A stretch of DNA of 47,862 nucleotides, taken from a virus. Shown here piece after piece: positions 2 to 36,504 of this stretch. The stretch is from IMG/VR virus record IMGVR_UViG_3300043464_001238, positions 1 to 47,862 of that record, one strand, 5' to 3'. Made by a program: the position numbers and the translations under genes. The notes under the pieces were generated by a model, which was given only the letters and a program-made list of their open reading frames with translations, did not search any database and was not told the origin of the DNA. Position 1 is the first letter of the stretch; every line of letters starts with the position of its first letter.

Positions 2-1021
2 GGTGAGATCTTAGAAGATCGAATTATCACTCAGAATGGTGTGCCGATTACCAGGGATACGATTGATCCGTTAACACAGAAGCGCTACGGATACGTTCAA
101 GCCATCCTGGTAGACACCAACCCATTTACGGGTGTATTGACACTTCGCAAGCGTGGTTCCGTTGAGGCAACCCCAGATCGAGCACTGGTTACTCCTGCTA
201 CCAGGCCGCCAAACGTGGGGCGTTTCTTCATGACGGGTACGCGTTACTGCTGTTCTTGCCAAGATTTCACAAGGCGAGATTATGCATTCATGATGAATCT
301 AAAAGATTCCAACCGTAGATGTTTCCCCAGGAATAGCATCGGCAACGTGAAGCCTGGTCGCAAGGAAATCATTACGCTCAATGGTCTCGTCAACAATAAT
401 GCAATGACACCAGGTAATGTCAATCGTGGAATGCAGATTGTTGCCCCTGCGCCAGAATATAATGTTCCACCAACCATCACACCAAACGCGTCGGTAGTAG
501 AAGGTACGACCAGGGACAGTCCTGGTTTGTTTACAGACTTTGGCTCTGTTTACTTAAGGGGTACAGACCCAGCATTACCTGGTGCAAAATCAGACGGCTT
601 GCCAACTTACGCTGACTACTCCACGGTAGGAAATGAGTTGGTATCCTTGACGGATACGTGGACCCCAGTCTTAGATGAATTTCGGTATTGCAAACATGTT
701 TACGCAATGCGCTTTAAGGAGGGCGTATTCCCGCCCGAGCCGTCAGATGTTCCAATAAGCAACGGCAGTTTGGTTGAATGGGAACAACAACTTGTGGATA
801 CAAATGAAAAAAACCAAGAAAGAATCAGCGTCGAACTAGCCAGGCACGCTGTTTCTTACATGGATGTACCACCGTATAACTGCCAGGCACCAATGATGAT
901 GCCAATGATGCAGAAGCTGTTTAACGTACCGTCGACCTTTATTCGCATGCAAGGCTTCTCAATGTTTGACAAGGAAGGAAATCTGTACATTCCTTCTCAA
1001 GGCGGCATGCCCGCAACTTAA
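2..1021 (+). CDS. Virion-associated protein with split SWIM-like Cys/His motif (5' end outside window)
   Basis: The reading frame is open to the left edge, so this is the C-terminal part of a longer gene; an internal GTG at 41 is not needed as a start. It carries CxC (in TRYCCSCQDFTRR) and, about 140 residues later, CxH (in FRYCKHVYAM). Together these match the ligand pattern of SWIM zinc fingers, CxC...CxH, but with a far longer spacer than usual. The C-terminus is Met/Pro/Gly-rich. Position just before fibre genes suggests a neck or tail structural protein; this is inference. I know similar CSCQDF segments from cyanophage structural proteins but cannot name the protein. Confidence 0.75.
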   Translation, partial: GEILEDRIITQNGVPITRDTIDPLTQKRYGYVQAILVDTNPFTGVLTLRKRGSVEATPDRALVTPATRPPNVGRFFMTGTRYCCSCQDFTRRDYAFMMNLKDSNRRCFPRNSIGNVKPGRKEIITLNGLVNNNAMTPGNVNRGMQIVAPAPEYNVPPTITPNASVVEGTTRDSPGLFTDFGSVYLRGTDPALPGAKSDGLPTYADYSTVGNELVSLTDTWTPVLDEFRYCKHVYAMRFKEGVFPPEPSDVPISNGSLVEWEQQLVDTNEKNQERISVELARHAVSYMDVPPYNCQAPMMMPMMQKLFNVPSTFIRMQGFSMFDKEGNLYIPSQGGMPAT

Positions 1022-29945: not shown

Positions 29946-30050
29946 ATGAACGGTTTTGTGTACGCAATCTCCAGCATCCTCCTGGCTCTATTGACAGTTG
30001 TGGCCATTGATGCTTACCTGATCTTTATTGCCTCTACTCCAGGACAATGA
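29946..30050 (+). CDS. Single-helix membrane peptide coupled to Hli, 34 aa
   Basis: MNGFVYAISSILLALLTVVA followed by IDAYLIFIASTPGQ: almost one long transmembrane helix. Its TGA overlaps the Hli start (ATGA). Size and topology are those of small photosystem/cytochrome b6f subunits, but I cannot match it to psbN, psbT, petN, petG or others. Coupling to Hli suggests they work at the thylakoid together. Confidence 0.6.
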   Translation: MNGFVYAISSILLALLTVVAIDAYLIFIASTPGQ

Positions 30051-30295
30051 CAGGACTCGATAAGTTCTGGTACTCAATCCGTGGATGGTACAGCTGCATA
30101 TCCTGGATCATCATTGAAATTGTCAAGGAGTATCTCCCAGACCTAGTCTTCTGGAAGCCACCCACTCACCCAGATGATTTCACCTGGTATGCAGAGCGTG
30201 TCAACGGAAGGCTTGCCATGCTAGCAGTAACCATCATTTTAGTCACCGAGTTAACCACCAAATCTTCCATTTGGAATCTTGTCCATGTCCTGTAA
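30047..30295 (+). CDS. hli: High-light-inducible protein (Hli)
   Basis: 82 residues. AERVNGRLAMLAVTIILVTE (about 49-68) is the chlorophyll-binding helix signature E-x2-N-G-R-x-A-M. Hli proteins are single-helix thylakoid proteins that dissipate excess light energy and protect photosystem II during infection. The N-terminal 45 residues are longer than in typical phage Hli and contain a second moderately hydrophobic stretch (WYSCISWIIIEIV). Confidence 0.85.
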   Translation: MTGLDKFWYSIRGWYSCISWIIIEIVKEYLPDLVFWKPPTHPDDFTWYAERVNGRLAMLAVTIILVTELTTKSSIWNLVHVL

Positions 30296-31786: not shown

Positions 31787-31858
31787 AGGTCGTTAGTCTA
31801 TTGGTAAGGACAGGTGGACAACACACATTGAAAGTCGGTTCGATTCCGGCACGACCCT
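31787..31858 (+). other. tRNA-like element with aberrant anticodon arm
   Basis: Acceptor AGGTCGT/ACGACCC (six pairs, first pair A-C), TA linker, D arm GTCT-ATTGGTAA-GGAC, T arm GTCGG-TTCGATT-CCGGC with a canonical T loop. Spacing is that of a 72-nt tRNA. The 21 nt between D and T arms (31813-31833) do not form a normal anticodon stem and have no T at position 33: registers give AAC or CAA with poor stems. CCA is not encoded. Either a decayed tRNA, a tRNA mimic, or an attachment-site remnant. Confidence 0.45.
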
Positions 31859-31887: not shown

Positions 31888-32136
31888 GTGCCAACAAGTA
31901 CACGCAGGTTACAAGAAAACCGGCAGAGATTCTTGGAATACAAGAAGACTCTTAAGTGCGAGCACTGCGCCCTGGAAGACTATAGAGTCCTTGAGTTTCA
32001 CCATATAGGTGACAAGGATTTAAATGTGTCAAGTATGGTCAATCACGGATACGCCTGGCGCCGTATCCAAGAAGAAATCAATAAATGCATTCCGCTGTGC
32101 TGCAACTGCCACAGGCTTGCGCACTGGAGCGATTAA
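31888..32136 (+). CDS. HNH endonuclease, 82 aa
   Basis: GTG start. KCEHCALEDYRVLEFHHI is the first Cys pair plus HH, and EINKCIPLCCNCHRLAHW the second Cys pair and terminal His: a compact free-standing HNH homing nuclease. It lies 29 nt after the tRNA-like element and is convergent (4-nt overlap) with the 730-residue gene. The pairing with a tRNA-like sequence fits homing-nuclease behaviour. Confidence 0.8.
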   Translation: MPTSTRRLQENRQRFLEYKKTLKCEHCALEDYRVLEFHHIGDKDLNVSSMVNHGYAWRRIQEEINKCIPLCCNCHRLAHWSD

Positions 32137-34325
32137 CGTCCAATAATACTTCCAGCATTAAAACGGTTTAATGCATCTTCAAATTTAGATCCAACAACAT
32201 CCCACCAAGGACGGCCAACTGTTTTAGTTCCTGCAACCGAACCATAAGGTACTTGGACCGGTTTACCACCAAGAATTGCAGTACCCATGCGCGGTTGAAT
32301 TGTGGGGGTTGACCCTGCATATGTTGGATACGAAGAAGGAACTTGATTCCTGGTGGCAAAATCTTTACCAGTACGTGATTTATAAGCACGATTTAAAGCT
32401 TTACCTGTTTCAACTAAACCTTGGCCAGCTAGTAAGCCACCAGCAAGTGGGAGTGCACTACCAACCGCAGCAGCAGGACGTACATATCCAGCAGCCTGAA
32501 GCGCTTGTAGCCCTTTGGCAGTAGCGCCGCCAACCGCCGAACCAATTGCTGTATTTAATGCAGCTGTTGTTCCTGCTTGCATATAATTACCGCGAGACAA
32601 AGCATCAACAACAGCAGGATCCATTGCTGTTGCAATACTGCCTGCAGCAAAACCACCAAGTCCCAATCCTTTAATAGGTTTAGATTGCTCAACTAAATTT
32701 TCAACAGTTCTATTTAAAAGTTTATTAGCAGCTTGCGGACGTAACGCATCACGGTTAATGATTAAATCATAAGAAGGGTTGTTTATATTTTCTGCAAATT
32801 CTTTTTGCGCTTTTTCAGTGCCTTTTGCAAGCATTGTTTCTATTATTCTTGTATGCGGATTTATACGTTCAATTGTGGATGCGTTATACCTTGGATAAAC
32901 GTGTTTAAATGTTGTATCAAACTCATCAACAGTAAATGGAGAATACCGAGTTTTATCTACTGGAGGAAGAATACCAATTTGACGTAAATCAGTTTTGCTT
33001 GCAAATGATCCAAACGGATTTGTTGTTTGCCCTTCTATGGGAAACTTACCTATTTGCCCAGTTACCGCAGGAGTAGGTGGCGTTACAGGCTCTCCAACAT
33101 TTGGAACAAGACGCGCAAATTTTTCAATTGCTTGAGAAGGACTTATTCCTTCTGCATCAGCTAATCGTTGTAGGTTTTCGTCTAATAAATTCCCTGGTTT
33201 CTTAATTGGATTTCGTTCTCCCGGAATTATTGCACCAGTTCCAGAACTGCCGGCAACTGTTTTATCAGGAGTTTTTGTATAAGTTTGATAAGTAAATGGT
33301 AAATTGCGTTCAGCCAGAAGTGATTGCAAATCTCCAACAGTTAACTCGCCCCTGGCACCAATCAAATCTTTTCTAAAATGTATGTCTCCAGCATTTCCGC
33401 GACTGTCAGTAATGCCCCAAGAAGGGCCGGTACCTGGCCCTAGGTCTTCATACAGTTTAAATTTTACCCTTGGATCAACTGATAAATAATCTTTCTCATT
33501 GTCTACTGAAAGGGAATTGAAGCTGCTTTTTTTTATATTTCCTGTGTATAAATACTCTGCTTCTTTAGAAGGATCTGCGTTAATGCGTGAAACATAAATT
33601 GAGGGATTGTCCCCTGTTAATTTTTGACCTTGCCCCCAGTTTCCTTCTGCATAAGTATATTGCGGTTGGTCTGTGTTTCCCCAAACGTAACCAGCAGTTC
33701 GCCCTGGTATTTTTGAAGACAATACATTTATTTTACTTGCAAGTTTAGCTGCTTCGTCATTCCATTCTTTTGAGCTTTCAAATTGATTAATTGCTTTGCC
33801 TAATTTATCTGAAAGAATTTCAGCATAGTCTTGAGCAAAGCGTCCTGGGTTTGGTCCTGGTGTAACTGTAATTGCTTGTATATCTCCTTCTGGAAAAATT
33901 GTTTTATTTTGAACTGCTTGTGAATATGAGCCCAGCTCAGGACTTGGAGCCTCTGGCTGCCCACTTAAATATGAAGGAAAACTTTTTTGACTTTTGTATA
34001 AATTATCTGGGTACAAAGGAGAGCCTGTTGTCGAATCTCCTTTACGAACATCTTTGTCAAATACACGACTACTTGCAACGCCTTGATGTAAAGGTACAAT
34101 AGGCAGCGATCGATTGCCCGTTCTGGAAACATCAAACATATTGGGATCAGCCTGCGGAAACATCCGCATGGCTTCTTGTTGTTTAATGTTTAACTTATCT
34201 TTTTCGTTGAGTAAGTTTTGAAAAGGTAAAATTGTTCCCAAAGGAACTGCTGCTGTAAATGCGCCTAAACTTCCAAGTGTTTGTAACGCCTGCTTTTGTT
34301 CTTCTGTCAATGGCTTATTAGGCAT
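32133..34325 (-). CDS. Large putative internal virion protein, 730 aa
   Basis: Starts MPNKPLTEEQKQALQTLGSL with a hydrophobic stretch. The C-terminal third (about 550-650) has Gly/Ala-rich hydrophobic segments (GLGLGGFAAGSIATA, AAGYVRPAAAVGSALPLAGG) of the kind found in ejected, membrane-penetrating phage proteins. The DNA here is visibly more AT-rich than neighbouring genes. No enzyme motif. It is directly coupled to the Dps-like gene (adjoining start and stop). Confidence 0.7.
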   Translation of the reverse strand: MPNKPLTEEQKQALQTLGSLGAFTAAVPLGTILPFQNLLNEKDKLNIKQQEAMRMFPQADPNMFDVSRTGNRSLPIVPLHQGVASSRVFDKDVRKGDSTTGSPLYPDNLYKSQKSFPSYLSGQPEAPSPELGSYSQAVQNKTIFPEGDIQAITVTPGPNPGRFAQDYAEILSDKLGKAINQFESSKEWNDEAAKLASKINVLSSKIPGRTAGYVWGNTDQPQYTYAEGNWGQGQKLTGDNPSIYVSRINADPSKEAEYLYTGNIKKSSFNSLSVDNEKDYLSVDPRVKFKLYEDLGPGTGPSWGITDSRGNAGDIHFRKDLIGARGELTVGDLQSLLAERNLPFTYQTYTKTPDKTVAGSSGTGAIIPGERNPIKKPGNLLDENLQRLADAEGISPSQAIEKFARLVPNVGEPVTPPTPAVTGQIGKFPIEGQTTNPFGSFASKTDLRQIGILPPVDKTRYSPFTVDEFDTTFKHVYPRYNASTIERINPHTRIIETMLAKGTEKAQKEFAENINNPSYDLIINRDALRPQAANKLLNRTVENLVEQSKPIKGLGLGGFAAGSIATAMDPAVVDALSRGNYMQAGTTAALNTAIGSAVGGATAKGLQALQAAGYVRPAAAVGSALPLAGGLLAGQGLVETGKALNRAYKSRTGKDFATRNQVPSSYPTYAGSTPTIQPRMGTAILGGKPVQVPYGSVAGTKTVGRPWWDVVGSKFEDALNRFNAGSIIGR

Positions 34326-34879
34326 TACCCATTCCGCAACGTAGCCTTAACAAACCAAGCAGCTTTAAATGCCTGGCCAACAAGATCAGCCATGTAGTTT
34401 TGAATATCAATGGCCCCTACCTTGGCGGCAATAGGCTCAAGCTTCTTGGCTTTCATGCCTAGCTCTTCAAGGTTCTTGTAGTACACGCCAAGCATGTCAG
34501 CGCCCTTGTAGGAAGTCACTGCTTGCATTGGAGGAGCTGCATCCTTGAGACCGCAGCCACACTGTGGCATGAGATAATCCATCGACCTAACAAACTCAGC
34601 AAGGGTATCGAACTGTTCCAGGTGAGCTTCGTATTGATCCTTTAGGAATGCGTGGACCCCAAAGAAGTTTGATCCTTCGTAGTTGAGATGAATCAAATGT
34701 GATTGAGTCTCAAGTTCCTTGAGGTAAGCGCAAAGTGAAATGCACTGCTGGATGAATGCACCCACATCACCACCAGCCTTGGATTTAGCGGGAGCCTTAG
34801 GCTTGTCCTGGGGCCGAGGAACAGGTTGTGCCTGAGGAGTTTCCGCAGCCTGGTACTGTTGAGGGGCAGGAGTATACAT
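34325..34879 (-). CDS. Dps-like ferritin
   Basis: 184 residues. Residues 61-100 align with the Dps core: HLIHLNYEGSNFFGVHAFLK then DQYEAHLEQFDTLAEFVRSM. Against E. coli Dps, His64, His76, Asp91 and Glu95 fall exactly on the ferroxidase ligands H51, H63, D78 and E82 (spacings 12, 15, 4); the D67 position is Lys80. DLVGQAFKAAWFVKATL matches the last helix. A 37-residue Pro/Gln/Lys-rich N-terminal tail resembles DNA-binding tails of Dps. It would oxidise and store iron or shield DNA from peroxide. CGCG at 107-110 is unusual. Placement among virion genes also allows a packaged or structural role. Confidence 0.7.
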   Translation of the reverse strand: MYTPAPQQYQAAETPQAQPVPRPQDKPKAPAKSKAGGDVGAFIQQCISLCAYLKELETQSHLIHLNYEGSNFFGVHAFLKDQYEAHLEQFDTLAEFVRSMDYLMPQCGCGLKDAAPPMQAVTSYKGADMLGVYYKNLEELGMKAKKLEPIAAKVGAIDIQNYMADLVGQAFKAAWFVKATLRNG

Positions 34880-34928
34880 GGTTACTTATCAATAGTTCTA
34901 GTTTATCAGCCGTCAATACCTCAACGGC

Positions 34929-36263
34929 TTATCTTGAGATTTCTTCCCAATCCAATGCAGCATGCACAGTTGATGTGTTTGCACTAGCAGCCAAAACAAG
35001 TGACAACTCATAAGGAGTACCAGTTAAACCATTACGCTCTAACTGAAATTTAAACAATGCTTCTTTCAAGATGTCGATTGTAGTACTGGATTGGTTGCTG
35101 CCAGCAAAATATCCTTGAGCAAGAACGCGTCCGCCCGTAGTTGCAGTACCAGTTAAGTTGTATTCCACGGCAGAGTCAGCACCTGCACTTACCCAAGTAC
35201 CAGCAGTAGTGGTTGCACTGGCTACCACGCGCCACACATAGTTTGCAGTACCTGCTGCCGACATAATTGAGATGGCGGTCAAGATGACAATTGCATCAAG
35301 CGCCGTTGTTTTTAACCGCAGCGAAATCACTGGATAAAATGTGCCAGCCGTAGTCAGACTATAAGGTGCAGTAATTGTAGTGCCAATGGCTTGCTGGAGG
35401 CCACGTAACTCATAGCCACCTTCTGAAATAACACTTGAACAAATTTGTTTCAGTGTACTGCTACTTGCAGTAGCAGCAGTATTTCTAATTTCATAACGTA
35501 AAGGTAACGATGCGGTTGTGATGTAAGTAGATGTAATTAAGTTGGCATGATGGAATGAATGACAATGAATTAACTTACCGTCAATAACAAAACCTACCCG
35601 TACAGTACCAAGACCCAGCCACTCAATATCCATGAACAGGATTTGAGCTTTAGTTAGGTCAAGCGTAATACCAGATACGCCTGTACCATCAAGCTTGTCA
35701 ATATTCCAATTCGATTGAGCAACTCTGGTTTCAGTTACAGAACCAGTTACAAGACTGCGCTCAACAAATGTTGCCGCACTGGTCCCATCTTTTTCTATAT
35801 AGATGCCATTGTCGGCGCCGTAGTAGCCAACCCGTTGACGCAACCCAGTCTTGAATGCGTTCATCACAAAGGTTGACATCACCAACAAGGACTTGCCTGG
35901 TTGATACGCAAACACCTTTGTTGTTTCCCTGATGATTTCAGAGCCAGATGTTGTTGTGACGTTGAGGTCTACAAGTCCAGCATTAGCGTTAAATGCTGTA
36001 GTGCCACCGACACCACTGGTTGTAGTCCACAGACCATTATCTTTATAACGATGGCTGGAATCAAACAGTGTTAAGGGTGTGGAAGAACGCAATCGACCAA
36101 AGGCATCAGAAGCAACGCCTGCAGGCTGGATGTTAACCACCCCACTGGACGTACTGGTTACTTCAATTGGCTGACCACTTGCAGTGGTTACGACAATTCC
36201 AGAACCGTAATCTGCATATCCCGAAGTTCCATCACCATAATCATTGATATAACGGATAATCAT
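34929..36263 (-). CDS. Virion structural protein, 444 aa
   Basis: After a short N-terminus (MIIRYINDYGDGTSGYADYG) comes VNIQPAGVASDAFGRLRSST, PLTLFDSSHRYKDNGLW and AYQPGKSLLVMSTFVMNAFK. This DAFGRLR...TLFDS...YQPGKS order is found in a widely conserved phage structural protein family without an assigned role. ATG 36263 is chosen because a promoter box ends 21 nt upstream; an earlier in-frame ATG at 36314 would add a Lys-rich run. An inverted repeat AGCCGT/ACGGCT (34908-34929) lies at the stop. Confidence 0.75.
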   Translation of the reverse strand: MIIRYINDYGDGTSGYADYGSGIVVTTASGQPIEVTSTSSGVVNIQPAGVASDAFGRLRSSTPLTLFDSSHRYKDNGLWTTTSGVGGTTAFNANAGLVDLNVTTTSGSEIIRETTKVFAYQPGKSLLVMSTFVMNAFKTGLRQRVGYYGADNGIYIEKDGTSAATFVERSLVTGSVTETRVAQSNWNIDKLDGTGVSGITLDLTKAQILFMDIEWLGLGTVRVGFVIDGKLIHCHSFHHANLITSTYITTASLPLRYEIRNTAATASSSTLKQICSSVISEGGYELRGLQQAIGTTITAPYSLTTAGTFYPVISLRLKTTALDAIVILTAISIMSAAGTANYVWRVVASATTTAGTWVSAGADSAVEYNLTGTATTGGRVLAQGYFAGSNQSSTTIDILKEALFKFQLERNGLTGTPYELSLVLAASANTSTVHAALDWEEISR

Positions 36264-36280
36264 TTTGCCATAAGACTTTT

Positions 36281-36291
36281 TCTTATTGTAG
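36281..36291 (-). promoter_or_regulatory. Putative late promoter box
   Basis: Minus-strand CTACAATAAGA then AAAAG, 21 nt before ATG 36263 and overlapping the last codons of the zinc protein gene. Confidence 0.5.
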
Positions 36292-36504
36292 TTCTTCTTG
36301 CCTCCACTCAGCACGCAAGTGGCCGTAGTCCCGTGGCTCAGTAACGCTTACATCAGTTGCACCACACACACCACAAGTTCCCATGTGATTTGTAGAACAA
36401 TTGTCTGGCCCAATATAAGTTCCATTTTTATACCAAGCCCCATACTTTACACCACACGTGTGGCATATCCAAGTTGGATAATCAACTCGCTTTTGTTTCT
36501 TCAT
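36283..36504 (-). CDS. Zinc-ribbon protein, 73 aa
   Basis: MKKQKRVDYPTWICHTCGVK ... DNCSTNHMGTCGVCGATDV: two CxxC knuckles form a zinc ribbon. It overlaps the upstream gene by 23 nt. Related small ribbons in phages are of unknown function; nucleic-acid binding is possible. Confidence 0.65.
   Translation of the reverse strand: MKKQKRVDYPTWICHTCGVKYGAWYKNGTYIGPDNCSTNHMGTCGVCGATDVSVTEPRDYGHLRAEWRQEELQ

Follow-up and report, generated by a model that had tools for sequence, protein, structure and literature searches.

A Dps-family mini-ferritin gene in a cyanophage of the Synechococcus phage S-EIV1 lineage and its variable surroundings

The viral record IMGVR_UViG_3300043464_001238 (47,862 bases, analysed over its whole length and called the window here) carries an open reading frame (ORF) at positions 34325-34879 that a preliminary description, made from the sequence alone, had read as a phage-encoded Dps-like ferritin with intact ferroxidase ligands. 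We confirmed that this ORF, referred to as dps, encodes a genuine Dps-family mini-ferritin. The product matched Pfam Ferritin (PF00210) with 40.8 bits (E = 2.7e-10), above the curated cut-off of 24.5. In a profile search, residues 42-182 matched PHROG 3636 ('DNA binding protein', E = 1.1e-26), a family that also recruits Escherichia coli Dps, gp67 of phage phiEco32 (annotated 'member of the Dps family') and the Dps of phage Privateer. The closest solved structures by sequence were 3kwo ('Putative bacterioferritin', E = 1.9e-7) and chains called neutrophil-activating protein, all of which we take to be of the Dps type. It is ligand spacing together with sequence that identifies the protein as Dps; the fold by itself leads to the ferritin superfamily.

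Ferroxidase ligands, N-terminal tail and predicted fold

When the protein was aligned with Dps of E. coli K-12, H64, H76, D91 and E95 paired with H51, H63, D78 and E82, and the spacings of 12, 15 and 4 residues were the same in both proteins. The last helix matched as well, K172 and W175 pairing with K157 and W160. Both likenesses had been proposed in the preliminary description and were borne out. Conservation was evaluated in an alignment of 62 rows, representing 61 distinct sequences because the window sequence occurs twice. The four predicted ferroxidase ligands were invariant in all 62 rows, and H61, N66, E68, H86 and C107 were likewise identical throughout. The tryptophan that stands beside the first ligand in E. 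coli Dps (W52) corresponded to Leu65 in every row. The invariance of the ligands argues for real iron oxidation. A cyanobacterial His-type ferroxidase, in which His replaces the conserved Asp of site A, was considered and rejected because D91 was kept in 62/62 rows; the predicted site is thus of the canonical type. The ratio of nonsynonymous to synonymous substitution rates (dN/dS) was determined for the window gene and 12 relatives and lay between 0.04 and 0.14 in ten of the 12 pairs, with dS not computable in the remaining two. Judged by these ratios, dps is under purifying selection.

The helical part is preceded by a Pro/Lys-rich stretch (residues 1-36), which was predicted to be disordered, the predicted local distance difference test score (pLDDT) being below 50 at residues 1-3 and 5-36. 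The Lys/Pro-rich, DNA-binding-like tail that had been noticed earlier is therefore present, a feature that only some members of the Dps family have, and it proved to be conserved: K26, P27, P30 and K34 were found in 62/62 rows and K28 in 61/62. The very start of the protein, MYTPxPQ, was also well conserved (Y2 in 61, T3 in 59, P4 in 55, P6 in 59 and Q7 in 56 of the 62 rows). The tail had four or five basic residues and a net charge of +1 to +4 in each row. The conserved Pro/Lys tail fits DNA tethering, and the conservation of the first residues suggests that there is also a specific partner.

An AlphaFold monomer model was built from 32 sequences. Its mean pLDDT was 80; the four long helices reached about 90 or above, the region of the BC loop about 70. 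The topology was that of Dps, i.e. a four-helix bundle with a short BC helix; another fold, which would have refuted the preliminary description, was not predicted. Dps chains were among the best matches in two structural comparisons. With Foldseek against the PDB, all 50 rows listed were Dps-family entries, TpF1 and MrgA being counted as Dps proteins. With VIA-align, the model was superimposed on Bacillus subtilis MrgA (Z 19.2, 1.9 Å over 142 residues) and on T. elongatus Dps (Z 18.9, 1.9 Å over 145 residues). From homology, we infer a dodecameric cage with an inter-subunit ferroxidase site; the structure model itself is that of a monomer. A search of viral structures gave 16 matches at E up to 0.001, three of them to longer proteins that are named 'Prohead protease' in the database. 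Several uncultured phage proteins in BFVD, 290-763 amino acids long and including the three with this name, contain a Dps-like fold. The latter might possibly be fusions of Dps to head-maturation proteins.

Occurrence of dps in the S-EIV1 lineage

Fifteen of the 18 window genes tested, including those for the polymerase, SSB and primase, had a match in the part of Synechococcus phage S-EIV1 that was fetched. The three tested genes that gave no match were those directly flanking dps on either side and the ORF that follows further upstream. The phage is a member of the S-EIV1 lineage. The window also contains a high-light-inducible-like gene (PHROG 178, E = 4e-4), which is typical of cyanophages. 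This gene and the Synechococcus host of S-EIV1 suggest that the host is photosynthetic. An adjoining ORF of 194 amino acids matched PHROG 24975, a family of unknown function.

Among phage records, S-EIV1 was the sole match to the window Dps at E up to 0.001. Relatives were fetched with the Dps protein, and the best 80 of 124 IMG/VR loci plus the S-EIV1 record made up a set of 81. Since the 80 IMG/VR loci had been found through dps, they cannot show that the gene is conserved, and only a test that started from the DNA polymerase was used for this question. With the DNA polymerase of the phage, 35 loci were fetched, and 34 records were searched for Ferritin; locus L104, which shares a contig with the dps-bearing L001, was left out. 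The Ferritin search was positive in 14/14 control genomes. Among records with an S-EIV1-like polymerase (at least 71% identity), dps was present in 16 of 19. The three records lacking it were contigs of 11, 39 and 45 kb. Provided that gene order is unchanged, both longer contigs stop short of the expected dps site. The 11-kb contig leaves 8.2 kb, and 7.6-11.6 kb were needed in ten dps-positive records, so that this contig may also end before the site. No Ferritin match was obtained for any of 15 records with distant polymerases (35-42% identical), which are little informative, being fragments that are mostly short and in no case longer than 45 kb. These results suggest that dps, present in nearly all records of the S-EIV1 lineage tested, has been kept throughout this freshwater cyanophage lineage. 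In the literature searched, which did not cover the original description of S-EIV1, we did not find retention of dps across the lineage beside swapped neighbours, nor its position in a variable island with an upstream element of its own and a stop codon that overlaps the start of the next gene.

Genomic surroundings of dps

The gene lies inside a hypervariable island (Table 1). For eight loci, chosen by eye for flanks near-identical to those of the window (about 94-99% of nucleotides) and all found through dps, the content of the island was compared. The downstream gene (window 32139-34322) had no aligned stretch of at least 120 bases in any of them. The upstream virion gene was closely similar in two loci (L001, L002) and diverged in two others (L035, L008); in L031, L080, L003 and L004 it did not align. 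Alignment of dps was obtained in 8/8 loci (77-96% of residues), as may be expected of loci chosen through this gene. L031, L080 and L035 carried divergent dps alleles (79-81% of nucleotides) between near-identical flanks, pointing to recombination. A tRNA-Leu (caa) gene is located near the island.

Table 1. Positions of dps, its parts and neighbouring features in the window
Feature	Positions	Strand	Details
dps ORF	34325-34879	-	184 aa, ATG start; Dps-family mini-ferritin; Pfam, PHROG, E. coli Dps alignment, AlphaFold
Parts of the Dps protein	Residues: tail 1-36; helices A 35-66, B 72-99, BC 101-106 and 111-114, C 126-153, D 157-183		AlphaFold
Predicted ferroxidase ligands	H64, H76, D91, E95		Alignment with E. 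coli Dps
Downstream ORF	32133-34325	-	730 aa; ATG overlaps dps stop by one base (TAATG)
Hypervariable island	32138-36285		About 4 kb; well-conserved flanks on both sides; dps inside
Upstream gene, virion structural protein	34929-36314	-	PHROG 1645, head and packaging, E = 1.6e-150
Element upstream of dps	34890-34917	-	-38 to -11 from ATG; core GATAAACTAGAACTATTG
High-light-inducible-like gene	30047-30295	+	PHROG 178
tRNA-Leu (caa) gene	31787-31858	+

The preliminary description had placed dps between two virion genes. This proved correct for the upstream side, where the product belongs to a head and packaging family; it found no support downstream, where the 730-residue product matched neither PHROG nor Pfam families (each up to E = 0.1). 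The latter protein is without known relatives beyond the S-EIV1-like phage group, and its structure model was poor (mean pLDDT 35). The stop codon of dps overlapped the next ATG (TGATG or TAATG) in 46 of the 81 relatives, a set that includes near-copies, and did not overlap in the other 35. In 41 of the 46, the ORF that followed was 90 codons or longer, and the window shows the same overlap.

The downstream partners form several groups and are swapped fast. By eye, the partner in L044 is kinase-like, those in L032 and L052 resemble HExxH metallopeptidases, and further swapping ORFs occur at L059 and L082. Ten partners were compared with PHROGs, giving one weak match (L014, E = 0.075), and ten with Pfam, giving two matches below the cut-off, i.e. 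L044 to an ABC1 kinase-like family (E = 0.021) and L014 to PCP_red. Nothing was found in Pfam for L032 and L052, nor by phmmer against the PDB for L044. A C-terminal motif, GKPxxVPxGSVAG, is common to several partners, among them the 730-residue partner of the window, the 488-residue partner of S-EIV1 and the kinase-like partner of L044; the HExxH-like partners are without it. GSVAG was present in 12 of the loci L001-L133 scanned, many of which are too short to reach the site, and in L032, L047 and L051 it was situated well downstream of the ORF following dps and not within it. The partner in S-EIV1 (AHV82152.1, L082:20555-22021) is annotated 'sulfate adenylyltransferase'. We did not use this label, for which there was no match in Pfam (E up to 0.1) or NCBIfam (E up to 0.01) and which is probably a misannotation.

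Upstream of dps, an element was detected at a fixed distance from the ATG. Of 59 distinct upstream sequences, most have it in well-conserved form, including those that come with a different upstream gene. The scores had a median of 28.5 bits within a training range of -22 to 36.6 bits, and the lowest tenth scored about 0 or below. When the window was scanned, the dps copy, itself part of the training set, reached 33.2 bits and the next hit 13.3; two hits above 12 bits were observed against 0.7 expected. Within the element, the TAAACT/TACAAT/TATAAT portion looks like a -10 promoter box and the core like an extended -10, so that the element might be a promoter. A late promoter common to the virion genes was considered and rejected, because the sole strong match in the window was that of dps.

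Proposed role and comparison with known Dps systems

A cyanobacterium that is attacked in the light keeps producing peroxide, and its photosystems hold much iron. We consider it probable, with some reserve, that the phage protein is an intracellular, catalytically competent Dps ferroxidase that limits Fenton damage to phage DNA. This explanation is preferred because of the family, the monomer fold, the invariant ligands, the conserved tail, purifying selection, the presence in the lineage and the gene's own upstream element. Dps would be made during infection and would, by homology, assemble into a 12-subunit cage with di-iron sites between subunits, to which one chain would contribute H64 and H76 and its partner D91 and E95. 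These sites would oxidise Fe2+, preferably with H2O2, and the cage would store the product. As a consequence, less hydroxyl radical would arise beside replicating or packaged phage DNA in the photosynthesising, peroxide-rich cell, and the disordered Pro/Lys tail probably tethers the cages to DNA. What we infer in this scheme is the assembly of the cage, its iron chemistry and DNA binding, and the timing and benefit of the protein.

Several observations weigh against it. The protein scored 17.7 bits with the NCBIfam Dps equivalog NF006975 (E. coli-type), for which the cut-off is 114, and thus no orthology to E. coli Dps is claimed; identity to the seven cellular Dps proteins compared was 17-26%. 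The best row in VIA-align was the non-Dps thioferritin 2vzb (Z 19.3), and further non-Dps ferritin folds came near Dps, for example 2qqy (18.8), mini-bacterioferritin 9qq5 (18.7), YciE (17.9) and rubrerythrin (17.3). As such chains score like Dps, the fold alone is no proof of Dps. The net charge of the whole protein, -3 to +2, is close to neutral or slightly on the acidic side, so that any DNA binding would depend on the tail. Moreover, the position of dps, within the hypervariable island and next to a virion gene, would suit a virion or a host-interaction role as well as one in stress.

The main rival explanation, which we regard as unlikely, is that Dps cages or subunits are packaged in the capsid or bound to it and are delivered with the DNA, so as to condense or guard the incoming genome or to carry iron. 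It would agree with the head and packaging family of the upstream neighbour, with the three 'Prohead protease' names among the 16 viral structure matches and with the MYTPxPQ start, which goes beyond the specificity that a simple basic tail would need. Excerpts of two papers report Dps with purified virions of Privateer (PMC7881722) and in the proteome of phage SU10 (PMC4281155). The SU10 proteome, as excerpted, also lists DNA polymerase and thioredoxin, however, so that cytoplasmic carry-over is likely there, and the dps genes of Privateer and phiEco32 lie among nucleotide and replication genes rather than head genes. In the window, no virion family was matched by the downstream neighbour, and the upstream virion gene is unaligned in four of the eight near-identical relatives although dps aligns in them. 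Proteomics of virions of the S-EIV1 lineage was not found in the literature searched, again without the original S-EIV1 description. A related idea is more doubtful still. It is based on the stop-start overlap in 46/81 loci, the swapping of partners beside a kept dps and the reported detection of another phage's Dps with virions, and supposes a two-gene module of which S-EIV1-like Dps would be the constant half. The co-translated, swapped partner might be packaged and injected like the 'polyvalent' proteins, with Dps as a packaged carrier or guard of cargo and DNA. In an excerpt of the paper on polyvalent proteins (PMC5512222), kinase and peptidase domains are described in such proteins, which are thought to be injected with phage DNA, and the likeness of the partners to them is a lead; a search of that paper for the terms did not find Dps or ferritin.

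Slightly less probable again is a cage that captures host iron for phage metalloenzymes or for carriage out of the lysed cell. The iron-oxidising ligands are conserved and the iron demand of host photosystems is high, but the sequence does not separate scavenging from detoxification, and scavenging would make the conserved DNA-binding-like tail unnecessary. That the protein is an architectural, DNA-condensing one, with the ferritin fold kept mainly as a scaffold, appears quite improbable: strong conservation of the KPKAPAKSK-like tail speaks for it, yet four invariant metal ligands, at the dN/dS values found, would not be required of a scaffold. Least credible of all is a recombination anchor, i.e. 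that dps functions elsewhere and, through the conservation of its sequence, serves as a site at which adjacent cargo genes are exchanged by homologous recombination. The replacement of the downstream side in 8/8 loci and the missing or diverged upstream gene in 6/8, in genomes about 94-99% identical outside, would be in keeping with it, as would the divergent alleles in L031, L080 and L035; it accounts for the position of dps, not for the conservation of ligands and tail.

The occurrence data suggest that Dps is no occasional passenger of one phage and that a whole lineage of freshwater cyanophages has retained it. S-EIV1-like dps is a good test case for phage control of iron and peroxide in photosynthetic hosts and for Dps cages that travel in the virion. 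In addition, a kept dps beside a swapping, overlapping gene offers a concrete and testable starting point for assigning a function to a family of uncharacterised proteins.

The gene type is already on record in this lineage through the S-EIV1 orthologue (KJ410740, AHV82153.1, 'DNA-binding ferritin-like protein'), which is 64% identical over the full length and has the same ligands, the same kind of tail, the stop-start overlap and a syntenic site. S-EIV1 differs in its downstream partner, which is another protein. Cellular Dps proteins (E. coli Dps, B. subtilis MrgA, Listeria Dps and the HP-NAP class) have the fold and the canonical carboxylate ferroxidase ligands in common with the window protein. 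The cyanobacterial His-type proteins NpDps4 and TeDpsA resemble it in the cyanobacterial setting and the Dps fold; their type of ferroxidase is defined, in an excerpt of PMC6675082, by His78 replacing the conserved Asp of site A. The NCBIfam cyanobacterial DpsA equivalog NF052461 did not match the window protein at E up to 0.01, and the S-EIV1 orthologue scored 21.5 bits with it, the cut-off being 300. Two scans of bacterial genome contigs with short exact peptide patterns, by which distant relatives would be missed, found no relative.

Among phages, Dps of the Kuravirus/Grimontviridae type (phiEco32 gp67, SU10 CDS67, Privateer and phage 7-11) is phage-encoded too, and phiEco32 and Privateer share the match to PHROG 3636. 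It is 15-20% identical to the window protein and forms a separate, well-supported clade; CDS67 was present in all five C3 phages compared in the excerpted part of the SU10 paper (PMC4281155). The freshwater cyanophage S-SRM01 (Kyanoviridae) and its relatives, with 292 matching stretches in viral contigs, also encode a cyanophage Dps, which differs in being 16-19% identical, in having no N-terminal tail and in belonging to a separate clade. For Gratiaviridae gut phages and Lactobacillus plantarum phages, whose lineages and hosts are unrelated to those of the window, excerpts propose that Dps raises the oxidative tolerance of the host (PMC8008677, PMC6669764), and ferritin is named among defences of freshwater phages against reactive oxygen species in an excerpt of PMC6802176. 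A tree of 21 Dps sequences, none of them a cellular Dps of cyanobacteria, showed the S-EIV1-like, S-SRM01-like and Kuravirus/Grimontviridae-type proteins as three separate supported phage clades, which would fit several acquisitions. The S-EIV1-like clade sat on a long branch beside Fusobacterium; the program warned that this join may be false, and no origin was drawn from it. With Dps of Aeromonas phage APT65 as query, 138 of 50,697 phage records matched, including APT65 itself, duplicates and phiEco32. Viral Dps genes were thus already known, and what the present analysis adds is that dps is consistently present in this lineage and adjoins a swapping gene that overlaps it.

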